From an uncultured Pseudomonadota bacterium (GTDB lineage: Bacteria > Pseudomonadota > Gammaproteobacteria > Methylococcales > Methylomonadaceae): a DNA stretch of 37,295 bases. Below, one piece after another: positions 3,238 to 19,794 of this stretch. The stretch lies in contig CAINHP010000221.1 in assembly GCA_903848905.1 (NCBI GenBank), positions 1-37,295 of the forward strand, given 5' to 3'. Numbering within the stretch: the stretch's first letter is position 1; the number at the start of each line of letters is the position of its first letter. The notes under the pieces were generated by a model. It was given only the letters and a program-made list of their open reading frames with translations. It ran no database searches and had not been told where the DNA came from. Position numbers and translations under genes: made by a program.

Positions 3238-4509
3238 ATGTCGCAAATGAAAAAAGTCGTTGCATCAACCATGCTTGGCAACGGACTGGAATGGTACGAT
3301 TATGCTCTTTACGGCACATTTACAGCGTTAATTAGTAAACATTTTTTCCCTGCAGGCGATGAAAATGTCGCATTAATTGCAACATTTGGTATTTTTGCCA
3401 TTGGTTTTTTAATGCGTCCGCTTGGCGCCATGTTATTTGGCTATATTGGCGATAAATATGGTCGAAAAAATGCGCTGTCACTCTCGATTTTAATGATGGC
3501 CATTCCAACTGCTTGCATTGGTTTGCTACCAACGTACTCGATGATTGGGATTTGGGCACCTATTCTTTTAACCGTCATTCGCTTGGTTCAAGGCGTGGCG
3601 ATTGGTGGCGAATTTGGTGGTTCCATTGTGTATTTGGTGGAACATGCGAAACCGACTAATAAAAATCGTGTTGGCAGTTTATCCATGTTAAGTATGCTTA
3701 TGGGTTTATTTTTTGGCACCATGATTTCTGCGCTGCTTGCCGAATTTATGCGTCCCGAAGATTTTGATACTTACGGCTGGCGAATCCCCTTTGTATTAGG
3801 TTTTTTTATTGGTCTTGTTGGACTTTATATTCGAACAAAACTGCAAGAAAGTCCCGTTTTTCTCGAAGCGCAAGAAGCTGGTCATGTTAGTGAGTCACCT
3901 ATTAGTGATACACTCAAAAATAATTATAAAGAAGTCTTTCTCGGCATTGGTTTATATATGGCGGTAACGATTCCGTTTTATATTCAAACCGTTTTCATGC
4001 CAAGCTTTATGGTCAAATTCATGCACTTTAGCAGTTCAGATTCACTTGAGATTTATTTGATTGTCTTAGGTGTTATGATGGTGATGGCTCCCATTTCAGC
4101 GACGCTTTGCGATACACACAACCGTGAGCGTTTGATGAAAATTGTCTGCGTCTGTTATTTATTGTTTGCCCTACCCTATGTTTATTTGCTTGATTACCAA
4201 ACTTTTACGTTTGCGCTGATTTCACAAGTTGTATTTGCTATGATTGTTTCGTTTTACATTGCGCCTATTCCCACATTAGTGACTGAAATTTTTCCCGCTC
4301 GCACACGCTACACGGGTATGTCGCTTGCGTGTAATTTAGCGGCGGCTATTTTTGGTGGTACATCGCCCATGCTTGTTACTGCATTGATTACCAAAACGGA
4401 TTCCCATTATCCTATTGGCATTTATGTCATGTTTGCAGCTGCTATTTCACTTTTCTGTGTCTTTGAAGTGAAACGTCGCCGCGATCAAAAACGTCTATTT
4501 TTGATCTAA
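3238..4509 (+). CDS. MFS transporter of the metabolite:H+ symporter family (ProP/KgtP-like)
   Basis: This is a 423-residue, 12-helix inner-membrane transporter. GNGLEWYDYALYG in helix 1, GDKYGRK in the loop between helices 2 and 3, and RLVQGVAIGGEFGGS in helix 4 place it in the metabolite:H+ symporter branch of MFS, which includes ProP (proline/betaine) and KgtP (2-oxoglutarate). The substrate cannot be read from sequence, and I see no long ProP-type C-terminal coiled coil. The ATG at 3238 is preceded by an ACAGG ribosome-binding site at 3226-3230 with seven-base spacing. An in-frame TTG at 3214 sits at the predicted transcription start and is less likely. tonB begins 34 bases after the stop. 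Confidence 0.88.
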   Translation: MSQMKKVVASTMLGNGLEWYDYALYGTFTALISKHFFPAGDENVALIATFGIFAIGFLMRPLGAMLFGYIGDKYGRKNALSLSILMMAIPTACIGLLPTYSMIGIWAPILLTVIRLVQGVAIGGEFGGSIVYLVEHAKPTNKNRVGSLSMLSMLMGLFFGTMISALLAEFMRPEDFDTYGWRIPFVLGFFIGLVGLYIRTKLQESPVFLEAQEAGHVSESPISDTLKNNYKEVFLGIGLYMAVTIPFYIQTVFMPSFMVKFMHFSSSDSLEIYLIVLGVMMVMAPISATLCDTHNRERLMKIVCVCYLLFALPYVYLLDYQTFTFALISQVVFAMIVSFYIAPIPTLVTEIFPARTRYTGMSLACNLAAAIFGGTSPMLVTALITKTDSHYPIGIYVMFAAAISLFCVFEVKRRRDQKRLFLI

Positions 4510-14423: not shown

Positions 14424-14452
14424 AAAAAAGGCGAATTTAATTCGCCTTTTTT
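14424..14452. terminator. Bidirectional rho-independent terminator between rsfS and purM
   Basis: The stem AAAAAAGGCGAAT pairs with ATTCGCCTTTTTT around a TTA loop. The GC core is flanked by A on one side and T on the other, so it can end transcripts arriving from either direction. It sits exactly between the convergent rsfS and purM genes. Confidence 0.9.
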
Positions 14453-15560: not shown

Positions 15561-16028
15561 TTAAATAGGCTGTTTGCCGCCATGCAGACGAATAAGCAGC
15601 GCCGCCTCATCGTAGCTGATTTCAGATTGACGCATTAACTCTTCAATGCTCGCCCCATCTCGAATTTTACGAATATCAACATTATAAGGGCTATTTGGAT
15701 CAATGGGTTCATACTGACTAAACGCTGACATCTTTTCGGAAATTTGAGAAAGTTGTTGCTTTAATTCATGCAGTTTTTCATGAATAGTGCCTGTATTTTC
15801 ATTGACACTTAGTGCAGCAGAACATAAGCCATAGATATCATTTTTATTACTTTGAGTTATTGATTCAATCGTGATGTAATTTTTATTCAGTTTTAAATAG
15901 AGTCGACTAAGCCAAACAACAGCAACAAGTAATCCGACAATTACCAAGGCTAAAGCAATAAATCCAATTAAAATGGTCGTTTCGTTAAGCATGGATGTCG
16001 ATATGTTCACTAGGGACTGAGTCATCAT
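15561..16028 (-). CDS. DUF2802 membrane-anchored protein linked to flagellar/chemotaxis loci
   Basis: This 155-residue protein has one N-terminal membrane helix (about 17-43), a middle helical region with coiled-coil character (about 80-105), and a C-terminal helix-turn-helix-like motif ([29 protein letters not shown], about 122-150) that matches DUF2802 as I remember it. In Pseudomonas-type genomes DUF2802 sits at the end of the chemotaxis cluster after cheW. Its function is not known. A GAGGA ribosome-binding site at 16038-16034 precedes tandem ATG codons at 16028 and 16025. The gene overlaps the upstream 58-codon ORF by 44 bases. Confidence 0.72.
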
Positions 16029-16161
16029 GTTCTTCCTCGTAATCGTCGCTTAATTTCAGCTTACGCTTGGGTTTTTTTTCGGGCATACGATCATCATCTT
16101 TATGGATTTTTTTAGATTTTTTCATTGGATAAGCGGCTGAAACAGCTTGAACTTCTAACAT
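15985..16161 (-). CDS. Small charged hypothetical protein (58 aa)
   Basis: An ATG at 16161-16159 opens a 58-codon frame ending at TAA 15987-15985. A GGAG ribosome-binding site lies eight bases upstream. The product has a short uncharged start, then a highly charged stretch rich in Lys, Asp and Glu with KKSKKIHKDDDRMPEKKPKRK and DDYEEEHDD, with no membrane segment, so it is probably an intrinsically disordered cytosolic protein. It overlaps the DUF2802 gene, which suggests coupling. I do not recognise a family. It could be a spurious frame, but the ribosome-binding site and tight overlap argue that it is translated. Confidence 0.55.
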   Translation of the reverse strand: MLEVQAVSAAYPMKKSKKIHKDDDRMPEKKPKRKLKLSDDYEEEHDDSVPSEHIDIHA

Positions 16162-16236
16162 TTTATAATCTCCGCAAAAGGTGTCGTTTTATGCGTTTAA
16201 ATCTGTTAAATGCAACGTATTTCCATTAACCTAGTA

Positions 16237-16289
16237 TCAATAAGACAGAGAAAGTGATACATAAATGCTTACTTTCTCTGCCTTATTGA
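16237..16289 (-). repeat. 19-bp inverted repeat (stable RNA hairpin) between fliA and the DUF2802 unit
   Basis: The arms at 16237-16255 and 16271-16289 form a 19-bp stem with a 15-base loop. The only imperfection becomes a G-U wobble in minus-strand RNA but an A-C mismatch in plus-strand RNA, so the structure fits minus-strand transcripts. No T-run follows the stem, so it is not a canonical rho-independent terminator. It may be a partial terminator, an mRNA 3-prime-end stabiliser or a processing site. Confidence 0.6.
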
Positions 16290-16399
16290 GGTTATTTTTA
16301 AATTCAGGAGTTTTATCATACCTTAAATTTTATAACTAGCGTCTATTACAGTGCAATTGTTCAATAAATCCATGATTATCACGGCTAATTGGTTAATAT

Positions 16400-17131
16400 T
16401 CAATCATTATTTAACCAACTGCCCAATCGAGAGCGTAAACGCAGAACTGCTTGTGAACTAATTTGACTCACTCGCGATTCAGTCAAATTCAAAATCTTTC
16501 CAATTTCCCGTAGATTTAATTCTTCATCATAGTAAAGTGAAATAATCAATCTTTCACGCTCTGGTAACGAAGCAATCGCTGCACTCAACGCGCTTTGAAA
16601 ATTCTCTAATGTTAAACTTTCAAGAGGCGTATCATTGACACTCGAGGATTCTTCTAAGTAATTATCACCAGTTTGCGATAATTCTTCAATACTGAATACG
16701 CGACAATTATTTGAATCTTGTAAAATATGATGATATTCATCCAAACTCATATTTAGATATTCTGCTACCTCAGCATCTTTAGCCGCGCAACCCGTTTCAT
16801 TTTCAATAATTCGAATTGCATCACTTATAGTGCGTGATTTTTTATAAACCGAACGTGGCACCCAATCGCATCGGCGCACTTCATCAAGCATCGAGCCACG
16901 AATACGAATACCCGCATAAGTGTCAAAACTTGCGCCTTTACTTAAATCATAATTTCGCAATGCTTCAAGTAAACCAAGCATGCCCGCTTGAATTAAATCA
17001 TCCACTTGGACTGAATTAGGAAGCTTACTTAGCAAATGATAGGCGATACGCTTAACAAGTGGTGCATGTTGCAGAACTTGTTCGTCAATGCCTCCAACTT
17101 GCACGGAACTGTACATTGCTACTGCGCTCAT
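16400..17131 (-). CDS. fliA: Flagellar sigma factor sigma-28 (FliA)
   Basis: This 243-residue sigma-70-family factor directs RNA polymerase to late flagellar promoters. Region 2 is seen in VQVDDLIQAGMLGLLEALRNYD and FDTYAGIRIRGSMLDEVRR-DWVPRSV. The region 4 helix-turn-helix is LNLREIGKILNLTESRVSQ. I chose the ATG at 17131 because a GGGAGG ribosome-binding site lies just before it at 17141-17136 and because it forms an ATGA overlap with the 29-codon ORF upstream. An ATG at 17143 would add four residues and destroy that arrangement. cheY-cheZ, which often follow fliA in polar flagellates, are absent. Confidence 0.95.
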   Translation of the reverse strand: MSAVAMYSSVQVGGIDEQVLQHAPLVKRIAYHLLSKLPNSVQVDDLIQAGMLGLLEALRNYDLSKGASFDTYAGIRIRGSMLDEVRRCDWVPRSVYKKSRTISDAIRIIENETGCAAKDAEVAEYLNMSLDEYHHILQDSNNCRVFSIEELSQTGDNYLEESSSVNDTPLESLTLENFQSALSAAIASLPERERLIISLYYDEELNLREIGKILNLTESRVSQISSQAVLRLRSRLGSWLNND

Positions 17132-17217
17132 GCAACCTCCCATTTATTAAAAGGCTCATTGATAAAAAGTAACAGCCAATTTTTTGACTGCCACATAGTC
17201 AGTAATCGTTTATTCAT
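17128..17217 (-). CDS. 29-codon ORF coupled to both flhG and fliA
   Basis: An ATG at 17217-17215 overlaps the flhG stop (ATGA). The frame runs 29 codons to a TGA at 17130-17128, which overlaps the fliA ATG (ATGA again). The peptide has basic residues at the start (MNKRLL), three tryptophans and a short hydrophobic core (WLLLFI). It has no family I recognise. The geometry implies that ribosomes finishing flhG can reinitiate here and then at fliA, so it may act as a translational coupling leader whether or not the peptide has a role. Confidence 0.5.
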   Translation of the reverse strand: MNKRLLTMWQSKNWLLLFINEPFNKWEVA

Positions 17218-18086
17218 GCGACATCCTTTTGAGACGCGTACTTGACCATTCGTTCGATAAAAAATTCGATATAGCCACCTGCTTGCGCTTTAATGGGCCA
17301 ACTGTCAATTTTTGTCGCAATGGCTTTCATCGCTTGCGCAGATTTGCTACGTGGGTACGCTAAAACCACTGGATTTTGTTTTTGTACAGATTGGCGTAAG
17401 TATTCGTCATAAGGAATCGCGCCAACAAATTGCAAGGTAACGTCTAAATAATTATCCGTCACTTTGTTTAATTTTTGAAATAACGATTTACCCTGTTGAA
17501 CAGATTGCACCATATTAGGCAGAATATGAAAATGATTACAGCCGTAATCACGGTGTAGTAATTTAATAAACGCATAAGCGTCAGTGAGTGAGGTCGGCTC
17601 ATCGCAAATCACGACGATAATTTCTTGACACGCTCGTGAAAAATTGACAACACTTGACGAAATACCCGCCGCCGTATCAACAATTAATACGTCTATTTGC
17701 TGGTCAATTTCACTAAATGCACGAATCACCGCTGCTTGCTCAATGGTAGACAACTCCGTCATTTTTTGAATTCCTGACGCGCCAGGAATGAGTTTTAAAC
17801 CCGATGGCGACGTGACCATAATTTCGTCTAGCGTTTTCTCACCGGTTAACACATGCGACAAATTGTACTTGGGATAAACACCCAGCAAAATATCAACATT
17901 GGCAAGCCCCATATCCGCGTCCATCAATACGACGCGTTGACCCATTTTCACTAAAGAGATACCGACATTCACCGAAACATTCGTCTTCCCAACGCCACCT
18001 TTGCCACTTGCAATGGCAATGACGCGTACCGGTTTACTTTTGTTTAGTTTACGAATGCCTGCTGCTTGATCTGGTTGTTTAAGCAT
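17214..18086 (-). CDS. flhG: Flagellar number regulator FlhG (FleN), MinD-type ATPase
   Basis: This 290-residue ParA/MinD-like ATPase limits the number of polar flagella and works with FlhF. The deviant Walker A motif GKGGVGKTN is at 28-36, followed by MDADMGLANVDILLG and the VDTAAGISSSV switch segment. The C-terminus ends with an amphipathic helix (GGYIEFFIERMVKY) suited to membrane binding. The N-terminal LKQPDQAAGIRKL matches the conserved helix with which FlhG stimulates the FlhF GTPase. The ATG at 18086 overlaps flhF by eight bases. Longer in-frame starts lie inside flhF and add unconserved residues. Confidence 0.94.
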   Translation of the reverse strand: MLKQPDQAAGIRKLNKSKPVRVIAIASGKGGVGKTNVSVNVGISLVKMGQRVVLMDADMGLANVDILLGVYPKYNLSHVLTGEKTLDEIMVTSPSGLKLIPGASGIQKMTELSTIEQAAVIRAFSEIDQQIDVLIVDTAAGISSSVVNFSRACQEIIVVICDEPTSLTDAYAFIKLLHRDYGCNHFHILPNMVQSVQQGKSLFQKLNKVTDNYLDVTLQFVGAIPYDEYLRQSVQKQNPVVLAYPRSKSAQAMKAIATKIDSWPIKAQAGGYIEFFIERMVKYASQKDVA

Positions 18087-19794
18087 AACCTTGAGCCACC
18101 CATGCTTCGTTGTTTTCTTCGCTGTAATCGTCCACAACATCCAATTCAGTAACGCATTGTGCAATTAACTTTCTTGCACAGGGATGACGCATGTCTTCGG
18201 GGACTTGTTGACCGTTGGTAATAAAAGAGATTGGTAAATTATGTTCAATTAATGACGAAATTGCCGAACCGACGGTTGCCGCTTCATCAATTTTCGTTAA
18301 AATTGCCGCATGGGGTTTAAAAATATGAAATGCATCAATAATTTCATTCATTGCTTTGTACTCAGTTGCTGCTGACATAACGAGATAAGACTTAATCATC
18401 AAATCATTCTCTTTGAGCGTATTGATTTGTTCAATTAGTTTCATGTCGCGTTGACTCATTCCGGCTGTATCAATTAACACCAATTTTTTGTCAGAAAAAC
18501 TATGAATTAAATGACTTAATTCTGACGCACTTGACGCAACTCGTACAGGAATATTTAAAAGTCGACCATAAGTATTTAATTGCTCATGGGCAGCAATACG
18601 GTAGTTATCCGTTGTAATTAGGGCGACTTGATTGGGGCCATGCTTGATGGTGAATTGCGCCGCAATTTTGGCAACACTTGTTGTTTTACCTACACCTGTT
18701 GGGCCTACTAGGGCAACAATGCCACCTGTTTCAAGTAAATTATCTTCAGCGATGGGTAATACTTTTGAGAGCAATTCTTGTGCTTGTGTAAACACAAAAT
18801 CAAAATTGGTATGATTAGCAAAACGATTTGCAATTTTGACGCTTAATTTTTTTGAAATACTCATTCCTGCTAAGTTTTTCAAAAGCTCTGTGCGAACTGG
18901 AATCGCGTCTTTGTTTTGAAGATGATGCGCAAAATTAATGCTAGATAGCTTACTATCAAAGGTGTTGCGAAGAGATTTAATCTCTTTGCTCATCTGTATA
19001 AGTAACTTTTCAGATGCGTTTTCTTTCTCTTCAAAGTGAGCAGAAGCCGTTGTGTCAAATTTTGGTTGTTCGTTTATTGCCGCAGTTGGTTCAACGTAGG
19101 CTTGCTTTGTATTGGGCGAGTAGAGCGACGTTTCTTCTTCGAAAATATCGTCAAAATCGTCTTCGTAATCATCTTGGAATAAATGACGCAAATCACGCGC
19201 TTCATCACTGACTTCTGTGCGCAGGCCATGGCGAGCTTGAGGCATAATAGCTTCACGTAGTACTTCAACAGGTGCAACTACTTTTGGTTTTTTAGGCACT
19301 TTGATCATTACTGATGGCGATGTTGCTACGGTAGGCAGTGGAGCTGGCGTTGTGAAATGATGCTTGATCGCGTCCGGATTACCACGTAATTGGACTTTTT
19401 CGGCATAACCAACATATTGGTCTATTCCACGTCGCGCTGAACTGCGATTCATGGCTTTTTCTTTCTCTTCTTGTTTACGAGGACTGCTAACGACGTGCAA
19501 ACGATTTTTTTCAGCTTCAAAATCAGGCAATGCCACTTTTTTTACTTGTTTTGTATTAACAGTTGGCTTTTGATAATCGCGCGATGAAGATAATGATGAC
19601 TGACTTTGCGACGACTTTGGTGTTGATGCCGTCGTGCGAATAACTTCTTGTTCATCAAAATCGCGAGCAGCGACAATTTCAACACCGCCATCCACGCTGC
19701 GATTAGACATAATCACAGCATCTGCACCTAATTCATCACGAACCATCTGCATGGCTTGACGTATATTTTCTGCAAAAAAGCGTTTAATTTTCAT
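18079..19794 (-). CDS. flhF: Flagellar placement GTPase FlhF with a long linker
   Basis: This 571-residue SRP-type GTPase sets the position of the polar flagellum. The N-terminal B-domain starts MKIKRFFAENIRQAMQ-VRDELGADAVIMSN. The NG domain begins near residue 290 and holds G1 GPTGVGKTT (364-372), TTDNYRIAA-EQL (near 394-406), DTAG (442-445) and TKID (500-503). Between them is an unusually long, low-complexity linker (about 50-290) with an acidic patch at 208-221. An AAGGA ribosome-binding site precedes the ATG. It overlaps flhG by eight bases and follows flhA after 30 bases. Confidence 0.95.
   Translation of the reverse strand: MKIKRFFAENIRQAMQMVRDELGADAVIMSNRSVDGGVEIVAARDFDEQEVIRTTASTPKSSQSQSSLSSSRDYQKPTVNTKQVKKVALPDFEAEKNRLHVVSSPRKQEEKEKAMNRSSARRGIDQYVGYAEKVQLRGNPDAIKHHFTTPAPLPTVATSPSVMIKVPKKPKVVAPVEVLREAIMPQARHGLRTEVSDEARDLRHLFQDDYEDDFDDIFEEETSLYSPNTKQAYVEPTAAINEQPKFDTTASAHFEEKENASEKLLIQMSKEIKSLRNTFDSKLSSINFAHHLQNKDAIPVRTELLKNLAGMSISKKLSVKIANRFANHTNFDFVFTQAQELLSKVLPIAEDNLLETGGIVALVGPTGVGKTTSVAKIAAQFTIKHGPNQVALITTDNYRIAAHEQLNTYGRLLNIPVRVASSASELSHLIHSFSDKKLVLIDTAGMSQRDMKLIEQINTLKENDLMIKSYLVMSAATEYKAMNEIIDAFHIFKPHAAILTKIDEAATVGSAISSLIEHNLPISFITNGQQVPEDMRHPCARKLIAQCVTELDVVDDYSEENNEAWVAQGYA

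Follow-up and report, generated by a model that had tools for sequence, protein, structure and literature searches.

A 29-codon frame joining flhG and fliA in a genus of methane-eating bacteria: most likely a reduced sigma region-3 insert kept for translational coupling

The window, as we call the whole stretch of 37,295 nucleotides analysed here, belongs to a genome of 2.49 Mb in 278 contigs, and carries the flagellar genes flhG and fliA on its minus strand with a short open reading frame between them (Table 1). Its translation has 29 amino acids, MNKRLLTMWQSKNWLLLFINEPFNKWEVA. At its beginning, the TGA of flhG (17216..17214) overlaps the ATG of the frame; from there it runs unbroken up to fliA, where its stop (17130..17128) overlaps the fliA ATG (17131..17129), both junctions being stop/start overlaps of -4. 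The coordinates bear out a preliminary description of this DNA, made from the sequence alone, which had reported a 29-codon frame with exact ATGA overlaps at both ends and a GGGAGG ribosome-binding site ahead of the fliA start. The spacing between the flhG stop and the fliA ATG, given there as 70 bases, counts 82 (17213..17132). The identity of flhG is supported by the FlhG of relatives at the same place, which is 68-100% identical. No Pfam family matched the 29-codon frame at E <= 1, Sigma70_r3 (PF04539) included, and Rfam gave no match at the gathering score over positions 16000-18500. A scan for sigma-70-type promoters found no match within the 82-bp gap and two matches elsewhere, on the minus strand.

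Table 1. Features at the flhG-fliA junction of the window, with positions and basis.
Feature	Position	Strand	Basis or remark
flhG, MinD-type regulator of flagellar number	17214..18086	-	start taken at the Met of MLKQPDQ
fliA (sigma-28)	16400..17131	-	above the Pfam cut-off in each of regions 2, 3 and 4
Bridging ORF from ATGA to ATGA, 29 codons	17128..17217	-	open in 4/4 genomes with an 82-bp gap
5' ATGA junction, flhG stop/ORF start	17214..17217	-	AAAGGAT upstream, a possible ribosome-binding site
3' ATGA junction, ORF stop/fliA start	17128..17131	-	direct reading
GGGAGG, likely fliA ribosome-binding site, within the ORF	17136..17141	-	sequence and folding
Terminator-like hairpin of 11 pairs, then TTTTT (17168..17164), within the ORF	17169..17194	-	folding; 7 pairs in G014, weak in G006
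Predicted hairpin pairing GGGAGG and part of the fliA start codon	17130..17159	-	folding

The junction was compared among 18 genomes of a Methylococcaceae-like genus, including that of the window (G000). The group consists of freshwater methane-eating bacteria, and the named near relatives are metagenome-derived genomes; one assembly among them is UBA10906, which appears in the literature as an uncultured clade of Methylococcales methane oxidisers (PMC11192741). The junction is opened by 31-244 bp in 17 of the 18 genomes, the sole ungapped one, G017, having a plain ATGA overlap. The gap is 31 or 34 bp in four genomes (G009 and G010; G005 and G011), 82 bp in another four (G000, G013, G014 and G006) and 232-244 bp in nine. 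Without exception, the gapped genomes have an unbroken frame that begins with the ATGA of flhG and ends precisely at that of fliA, with a length of 12 codons (two genomes), 13 (two), 29 (four) or 79-83 (nine); 13 further genomes thus have an open frame of other length at the position of the bridging ORF of the window. Frameshifts or stops in relatives, which the preliminary description had named as evidence against its reading, are found in none of the 17, and this supports the coupling idea. Outside the genus the two genes overlap directly in almost every case. Of 57 named loci, 17 come from the genus and 40 from elsewhere; after dropping from the latter four without one of the genes and two distant ones (FlhG 39 and 44% identical), whose gaps do not lend themselves to comparison, 34 usable records remained, titled Methylobacter, Methylococcaceae, Methylococcales or Methylocucumis, and 33 of them have the 4-base overlap. 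The 34th (L086), from a Methylobacter metagenome genome, has an in-frame TGA at flhG codon 37, beyond which the rest of the gene reads on; its junction is intact, and its apparent gap of 758 bp is an artefact of this premature stop, which may be an assembly error. A locus search giving 30 places, from which the junctions of the same family were read, added 12 loci, with the 4-base overlap in 11 and a spacing of +6 in L029.

The nine long frames encode 79-83 residues and comprise eight distinct proteins, which were aligned. Residues 18-81 of the insert match residues 88-152 of FliA (blastp, 30 FliA sequences, E 1e-12 to 1e-16). Over a core of 52-62 aligned columns, the three best matches have 42-48% identity in seven of the eight proteins and 39-42% in the remaining one, from L018. 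On this sequence evidence, the core of the insert resembles FliA residues about 91-150, corresponding to sigma region 3. The structure predicted for the long insert has three helices, with a mean pLDDT of 73 and block means of 84-90 in residues 21-60. A Foldseek search with this fold returned no match at E <= 0.001; the best match was sigma-28 of Pseudomonas aeruginosa (9wsm_F, probability 1.00, E 0.034), and the sigma-28 structures 9wsm, 9wsf and 1rp3 were among the best. Structural re-alignment placed sigma-28/FlgM (1rp3_G) at the top, with an rmsd of 3.3 over 72 residues and a Z of 8.7, a value that by the tool's own warning is of a size possibly reached by background. A profile built from the insert alignment found FliA chains in the PDB at E 5e-6; a repeat protein ranked marginally higher (E 2.4e-6), but no individual stretch of it passed. 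Sigma70_r3 scored 22.1, 17.6 and 16.2 bits in the three long proteins scanned, below its cut-off of 25.3. As for regions 2 and 4, no Pfam match at E <= 1 was found in the three scanned out of the eight distinct long proteins, and the FliA match of the long inserts is confined to residues 88-152. The preliminary description had held that the gap has no other explanation, and this does not stand: nine relatives carry what appears to be a copied piece of fliA at that place, and the gap of the window also bears a terminator-like hairpin.

The long gene was found in nine of 237 family genomes, all nine in the genus, other matches lying in frames of at least 175 codons; among the matches listed for 369 class genomes, drawn evenly, every one lies in a frame of at least 199 codons. 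Both surveys are able to detect the long form only. In a tree of FliA region 3, the inserts form one clade with support of 100, on a long branch. With regard to the ends of the insert, the N-terminus of fliA as the source of its start gave mixed results (p 0.003-0.46, seven tests) and the C-terminus of flhG as the source of its end gave p 0.001-0.043 (seven tests), a likeness that may be due in part to the ribosome-binding site alone. FlgM is present in all 18 genomes of the genus, so that its presence does not track the insert.

The core of the long insert is under purifying selection. In eight of ten pairs its dN/dS, rough as single ratios because many silent distances are near saturation, is 0.05, 0.08, 0.09, 0.10, 0.10, 0.21, 0.21 and 0.28; of the other two pairs, one has silent changes only and one has no change, and the pairs L012-L015 and L012-L017 are in effect one comparison. 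The same region of FliA in the same eight pairs has a dN/dS of 0.05-0.19, and in the pairs with L015 or L017 the insert is less constrained than FliA or about equal to it (0.28 vs 0.05; 0.21 vs 0.19). The first 18 or so residues of the insert are loose. When three pairs that share no branch of the species-level trees described below (rpoB and rpoB+flhG+fliA) are combined, differences are found at 83 of the 129 silent sites and at 64 of the 447 others (Fisher p 1.6e-27). L015 and L017 (genomes G012 and G004) are identical over about 715 bases, from 367 before to 348 after the flhG stop, with the whole insert included and dispersed differences on both sides. This stretch is likely a recombination tract, and the identity of the two inserts was not taken as constraint.

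The short frame of the window behaves differently and, to judge from its substitutions, it is the frame, more than the peptide, that has been kept. G000 agrees with G014 at 21 of 29 residues and with G006 at 12. The dN of the frame is 0.13 between G000 and G014 and 0.37 between G000 and G006, against 0.003-0.023 in flhG and fliA (0.007 and 0.023, respectively, in the G000-G006 pair), and in codons 2-20 of the G000-G014 pair, which offer few sites, dN is 0.22 and dS 0.14. The tryptophan-rich micropeptide that had been suggested is not supported, since W9, W14 and W26 of the window are reduced to W14 and W26 in G014 and to none in G006. A micropeptide that matters through its own sequence is improbable, even though the residues of the last nine codons are kept among G000, G013 and G014 and the dN of 0.37 is lower than both the dS of the frame (0.89) and that of the flanking genes (1.17-1.49) in the same G000-G006 pair. 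The lower dS of the frame relative to flhG and fliA points to some restraint on the DNA. An accident, in which an 82-bp spacer happens to be open between two ATGA junctions, has to be weighed against recurrence. Dinucleotide shuffles of the gap with the frame kept are stop-free in 13.6%, and with the one-in-three frame factored in the probability is 4.5% for the two junctions as given, so the open frame of the window, taken alone, is only mildly unusual. What exceeds chance is the repetition among relatives, with 17/17 gapped genomes bridged in frame over four size classes. For the four short states to be kept in frame and stop-free, the product of the shuffle probabilities is 2.5e-4 if all four are independent, and by arithmetic about 1.4e-3 if one of the two basal short lineages is omitted. 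A count of bridges of 8-99 codons, joined by ATGA or GTGA and lying between ORFs of at least 100 aa, covered 606 kb of sequence taken from five of the genomes in this genus. It gave six, four of them at the flhG-fliA locus. The two other bridges, together with the 4.5%, leave some room for an accident, which we nevertheless consider improbable to much the same degree as the micropeptide. A true fliA start upstream, with the short frame merely overlapping it, is very improbable: an in-frame ATG at 17143, then GGAGG, is present in the window and has counterparts at that position in G013 and G014, but G006 has no such ATG and the FliA of 30 loci aligns from the start at 17131.

Two RNA folds are predicted inside the gap. 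On a rival reading the gap serves mainly as a transcription attenuator, its hairpin and TTTTT ending transcription ahead of fliA unless a ribosome reads the frame through the hairpin. A terminator hairpin with a U tract inside the frame does appear to be present, by consensus and folding. Its stem lies on the coding strand, its MFE is -13.3 compared with -6.6 in shuffles (z -3.1), and in a scan of both strands of the window it is the second strongest of 11 places with a hairpin followed by TTTTT. Against this, only four of its 11 pairs are G-C, the stem is full in G000 and G013 alone among the four genomes with the 82-bp gap, terminator-like places number two in the 601 bases scanned when 0.8 are expected by chance, and covariation of the two folds over four sequences was no better than in shuffles (83/500 as high, for pairs changed on both sides). 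We therefore hold a mainly attenuating role to be unlikely. In the second fold, the GGGAGG of the window has a mean unpaired probability of 0.10, against 0.34 in shuffles, none of 60 shuffles being as low; the site is also low in G013 (1/60) and G014 (2/60) and not low in G006. Across the 29 loci tested, these three were the only ones below 0.12 of their own shuffles, and this modelling makes a hidden fliA ribosome-binding site in three related loci suggestive. As the folds are weak or absent in G006, they cannot explain the first keeping of the frame. Elsewhere in the window, at about 14426-14452, a terminator-like hairpin with T runs on both strands lies between two convergent genes.

The order in which the forms arose was examined by phylogenetic analysis. 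The trees of rpoB and of rpoB+flhG+fliA support the genus with 100 and the 14 genomes outside the window clade with 100, and the four-genome clade of the window with 100 and 96, respectively (the rpoB alignment has 1362 codons, of which G006 has 596 and G002 1147). In the rpoB tree the window clade is sister to the remaining 14, a position under which it may have lacked the long gene from the outset. Both halves of the 14 contain genomes with long inserts, with short or absent states nested among them (G010 with G011; G009; G005 with G017), and on one reading only, that of the rpoB-type trees, there were three or more losses, after each of which an in-frame remainder or a plain overlap was left. 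The tree of flhG+fliA alone is weak at its base and puts G017, G005 and G009 nearest the outgroup, with supports of 29-42. The flhG+fliA alignment of the 18 genomes rejects the rpoB tree (AU p 0.0006), which indicates that the locus was probably exchanged between lineages. A clade of the long-form genomes alone is rejected by rpoB (AU p 6e-44); under flhG+fliA it is rejected by AU (0.0025) but not by SH (0.08). It is very likely that the long gene was lost, reduced or exchanged in some lineages. With the trees in disagreement, the count of independent events is not firm, and the short frames may predate the long gene. The short relay would then have come first, with the region-3 piece added later and the frame of the window an early form. 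The basal placement of an overlap genome and two short-form genomes by flhG+fliA and the little likeness of the 29-codon frames to the long insert speak for this order, while the nesting of G009, G005 and G017 among long-form genomes by rpoB and the rejection of a long-only clade speak against it; we regard it as possible, if rather unlikely. In 15 shuffle tests of three window-clade frames against the long insert, low values were obtained only for G006-L010 (p 0.038) and G006-L011 (p 0.006), and global alignment of short with long inserts gave p <= 0.04 in 5 of 35 comparisons. Direct likeness being weak, the case for descent from the long gene stands chiefly on the repeated junction and on the distribution of the forms. 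The frame of the window is most likely a reduced form of the region-3 insert, kept for the translational coupling of flhG and fliA.

We find it on balance probable that a duplicated junction with a piece of fliA was reduced to a relay frame that couples the translation of the two genes. The ancestral state would be an flhG-fliA pair overlapping by ATGA. In the genus, a repeated junction carrying part of fliA would have ended up between the two genes, most simply by tandem duplication, giving rise to a small gene with sigma region 3 as its core. In the window clade, 29 codons would be left, with little constraint on the peptide and the ATGA-to-ATGA frame retained. Ribosomes ending flhG would restart at the first ATGA, read the short frame, stop on the fliA start and restart there. 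A relay of at least 12 codons would bring back the 4-base overlap with fliA. In the species of the window and the two genomes closest to it, the passage of ribosomes may open the fold that hides the fliA ribosome-binding site, and may also disrupt the terminator-like hairpin, full in two of these genomes and with 7 pairs in the third. The output of fliA would then follow the translation of flhG tightly. We propose that the frame was kept because an untranslated 82-nt gap would break the coupling. In published reporter work, little termination-reinitiation was left across gaps of about 20 nt in most of the cases examined. A 38-nt gap in E. coli lowered reinitiation by 80-90% for two gene pairs and eliminated it for another, and the final 15 nt of the upstream gene were enough to support it (PMC10666635). 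Pseudomonas putida shares this gene order, and its fliA transcription requires promoters that lie upstream of flhF (PMC6424431). Against a need for coupling stands the good ribosome-binding site that fliA itself possesses. The earlier suggestion of termination-reinitiation gains from the frame being open in every gapped genome, and through such coupling the frame might, as was also suggested, set the ratio of FlhG to FliA.

The arrangement can be compared with known systems. It shares with ATGA-coupled termination-reinitiation pairs the 4-base overlaps at both ends, the same-strand flagellar genes and a ribosome-binding site before the second gene, but it differs from them in having a low-constraint short frame as an apparent relay, relatives that overlap directly, and relay lengths of 12 to 83 codons in one genus. 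Leader-peptide attenuators likewise have a short frame over a terminator-like hairpin, as seen in the window; here, however, the frame lies between two genes and the hairpin is not full in all relatives. The long form has in common with FliA/sigma-28 the region-3 core matching FliA residues 88-152, although it stands alone with 79-83 residues, regions 2 and 4 were not found in it and the three proteins scanned fall below the Pfam cut-off. SigO and RsoA of Bacillus subtilis form a split sigma factor, in which two partners make one functional sigma. There, too, a sigma piece is encoded apart from the rest, whereas in the present case the piece is region 3 and an entire FliA comes after it. FlgM contacts several regions of sigma-28; in E. 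coli, the extended -10 element is recognised by an arginine with which region 3 begins. We tentatively suggest, as a rather doubtful possibility, that the region-3 microprotein is a new class of flagellar regulator, doubly coupled in fixed proportion to FliA and tuning sigma-28, perhaps through competition for FlgM or at the promoter. Lineages that lost it, including that of the window, would have kept the frame, now empty, purely as a ribosome relay; in the subclade of the window this relay would have turned into a lock, with translation of the frame needed to open both the terminator and the fliA ribosome-binding site. Literature searches on flhG/fliA coupling, the fleN-fliA overlap, FliA fragments or decoys and partial duplication of sigma genes, with subscription journals thinly covered, turned up neither the frame nor a region-3 microprotein; the relevant mention in PMC8325347 is confined to the sigma-3 domain of WhiG.

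One genus thus offers a natural series of direct overlap, short relay, long relay and conserved insert gene, which lets selection for the translational coupling of two genes be tested directly. A sigma-domain microprotein arising inside a flagellar operon is also of the kind that is missed by the Pfam cut-off. The two bridges outside flhG-fliA, the sole ones in the 606 kb examined, run from ATGA to ATGA on the plus strand of L176 (genome G011), at 4137-4167 and 17641-17773, with 9 and 43 codons, and are flanked by longer ORFs.
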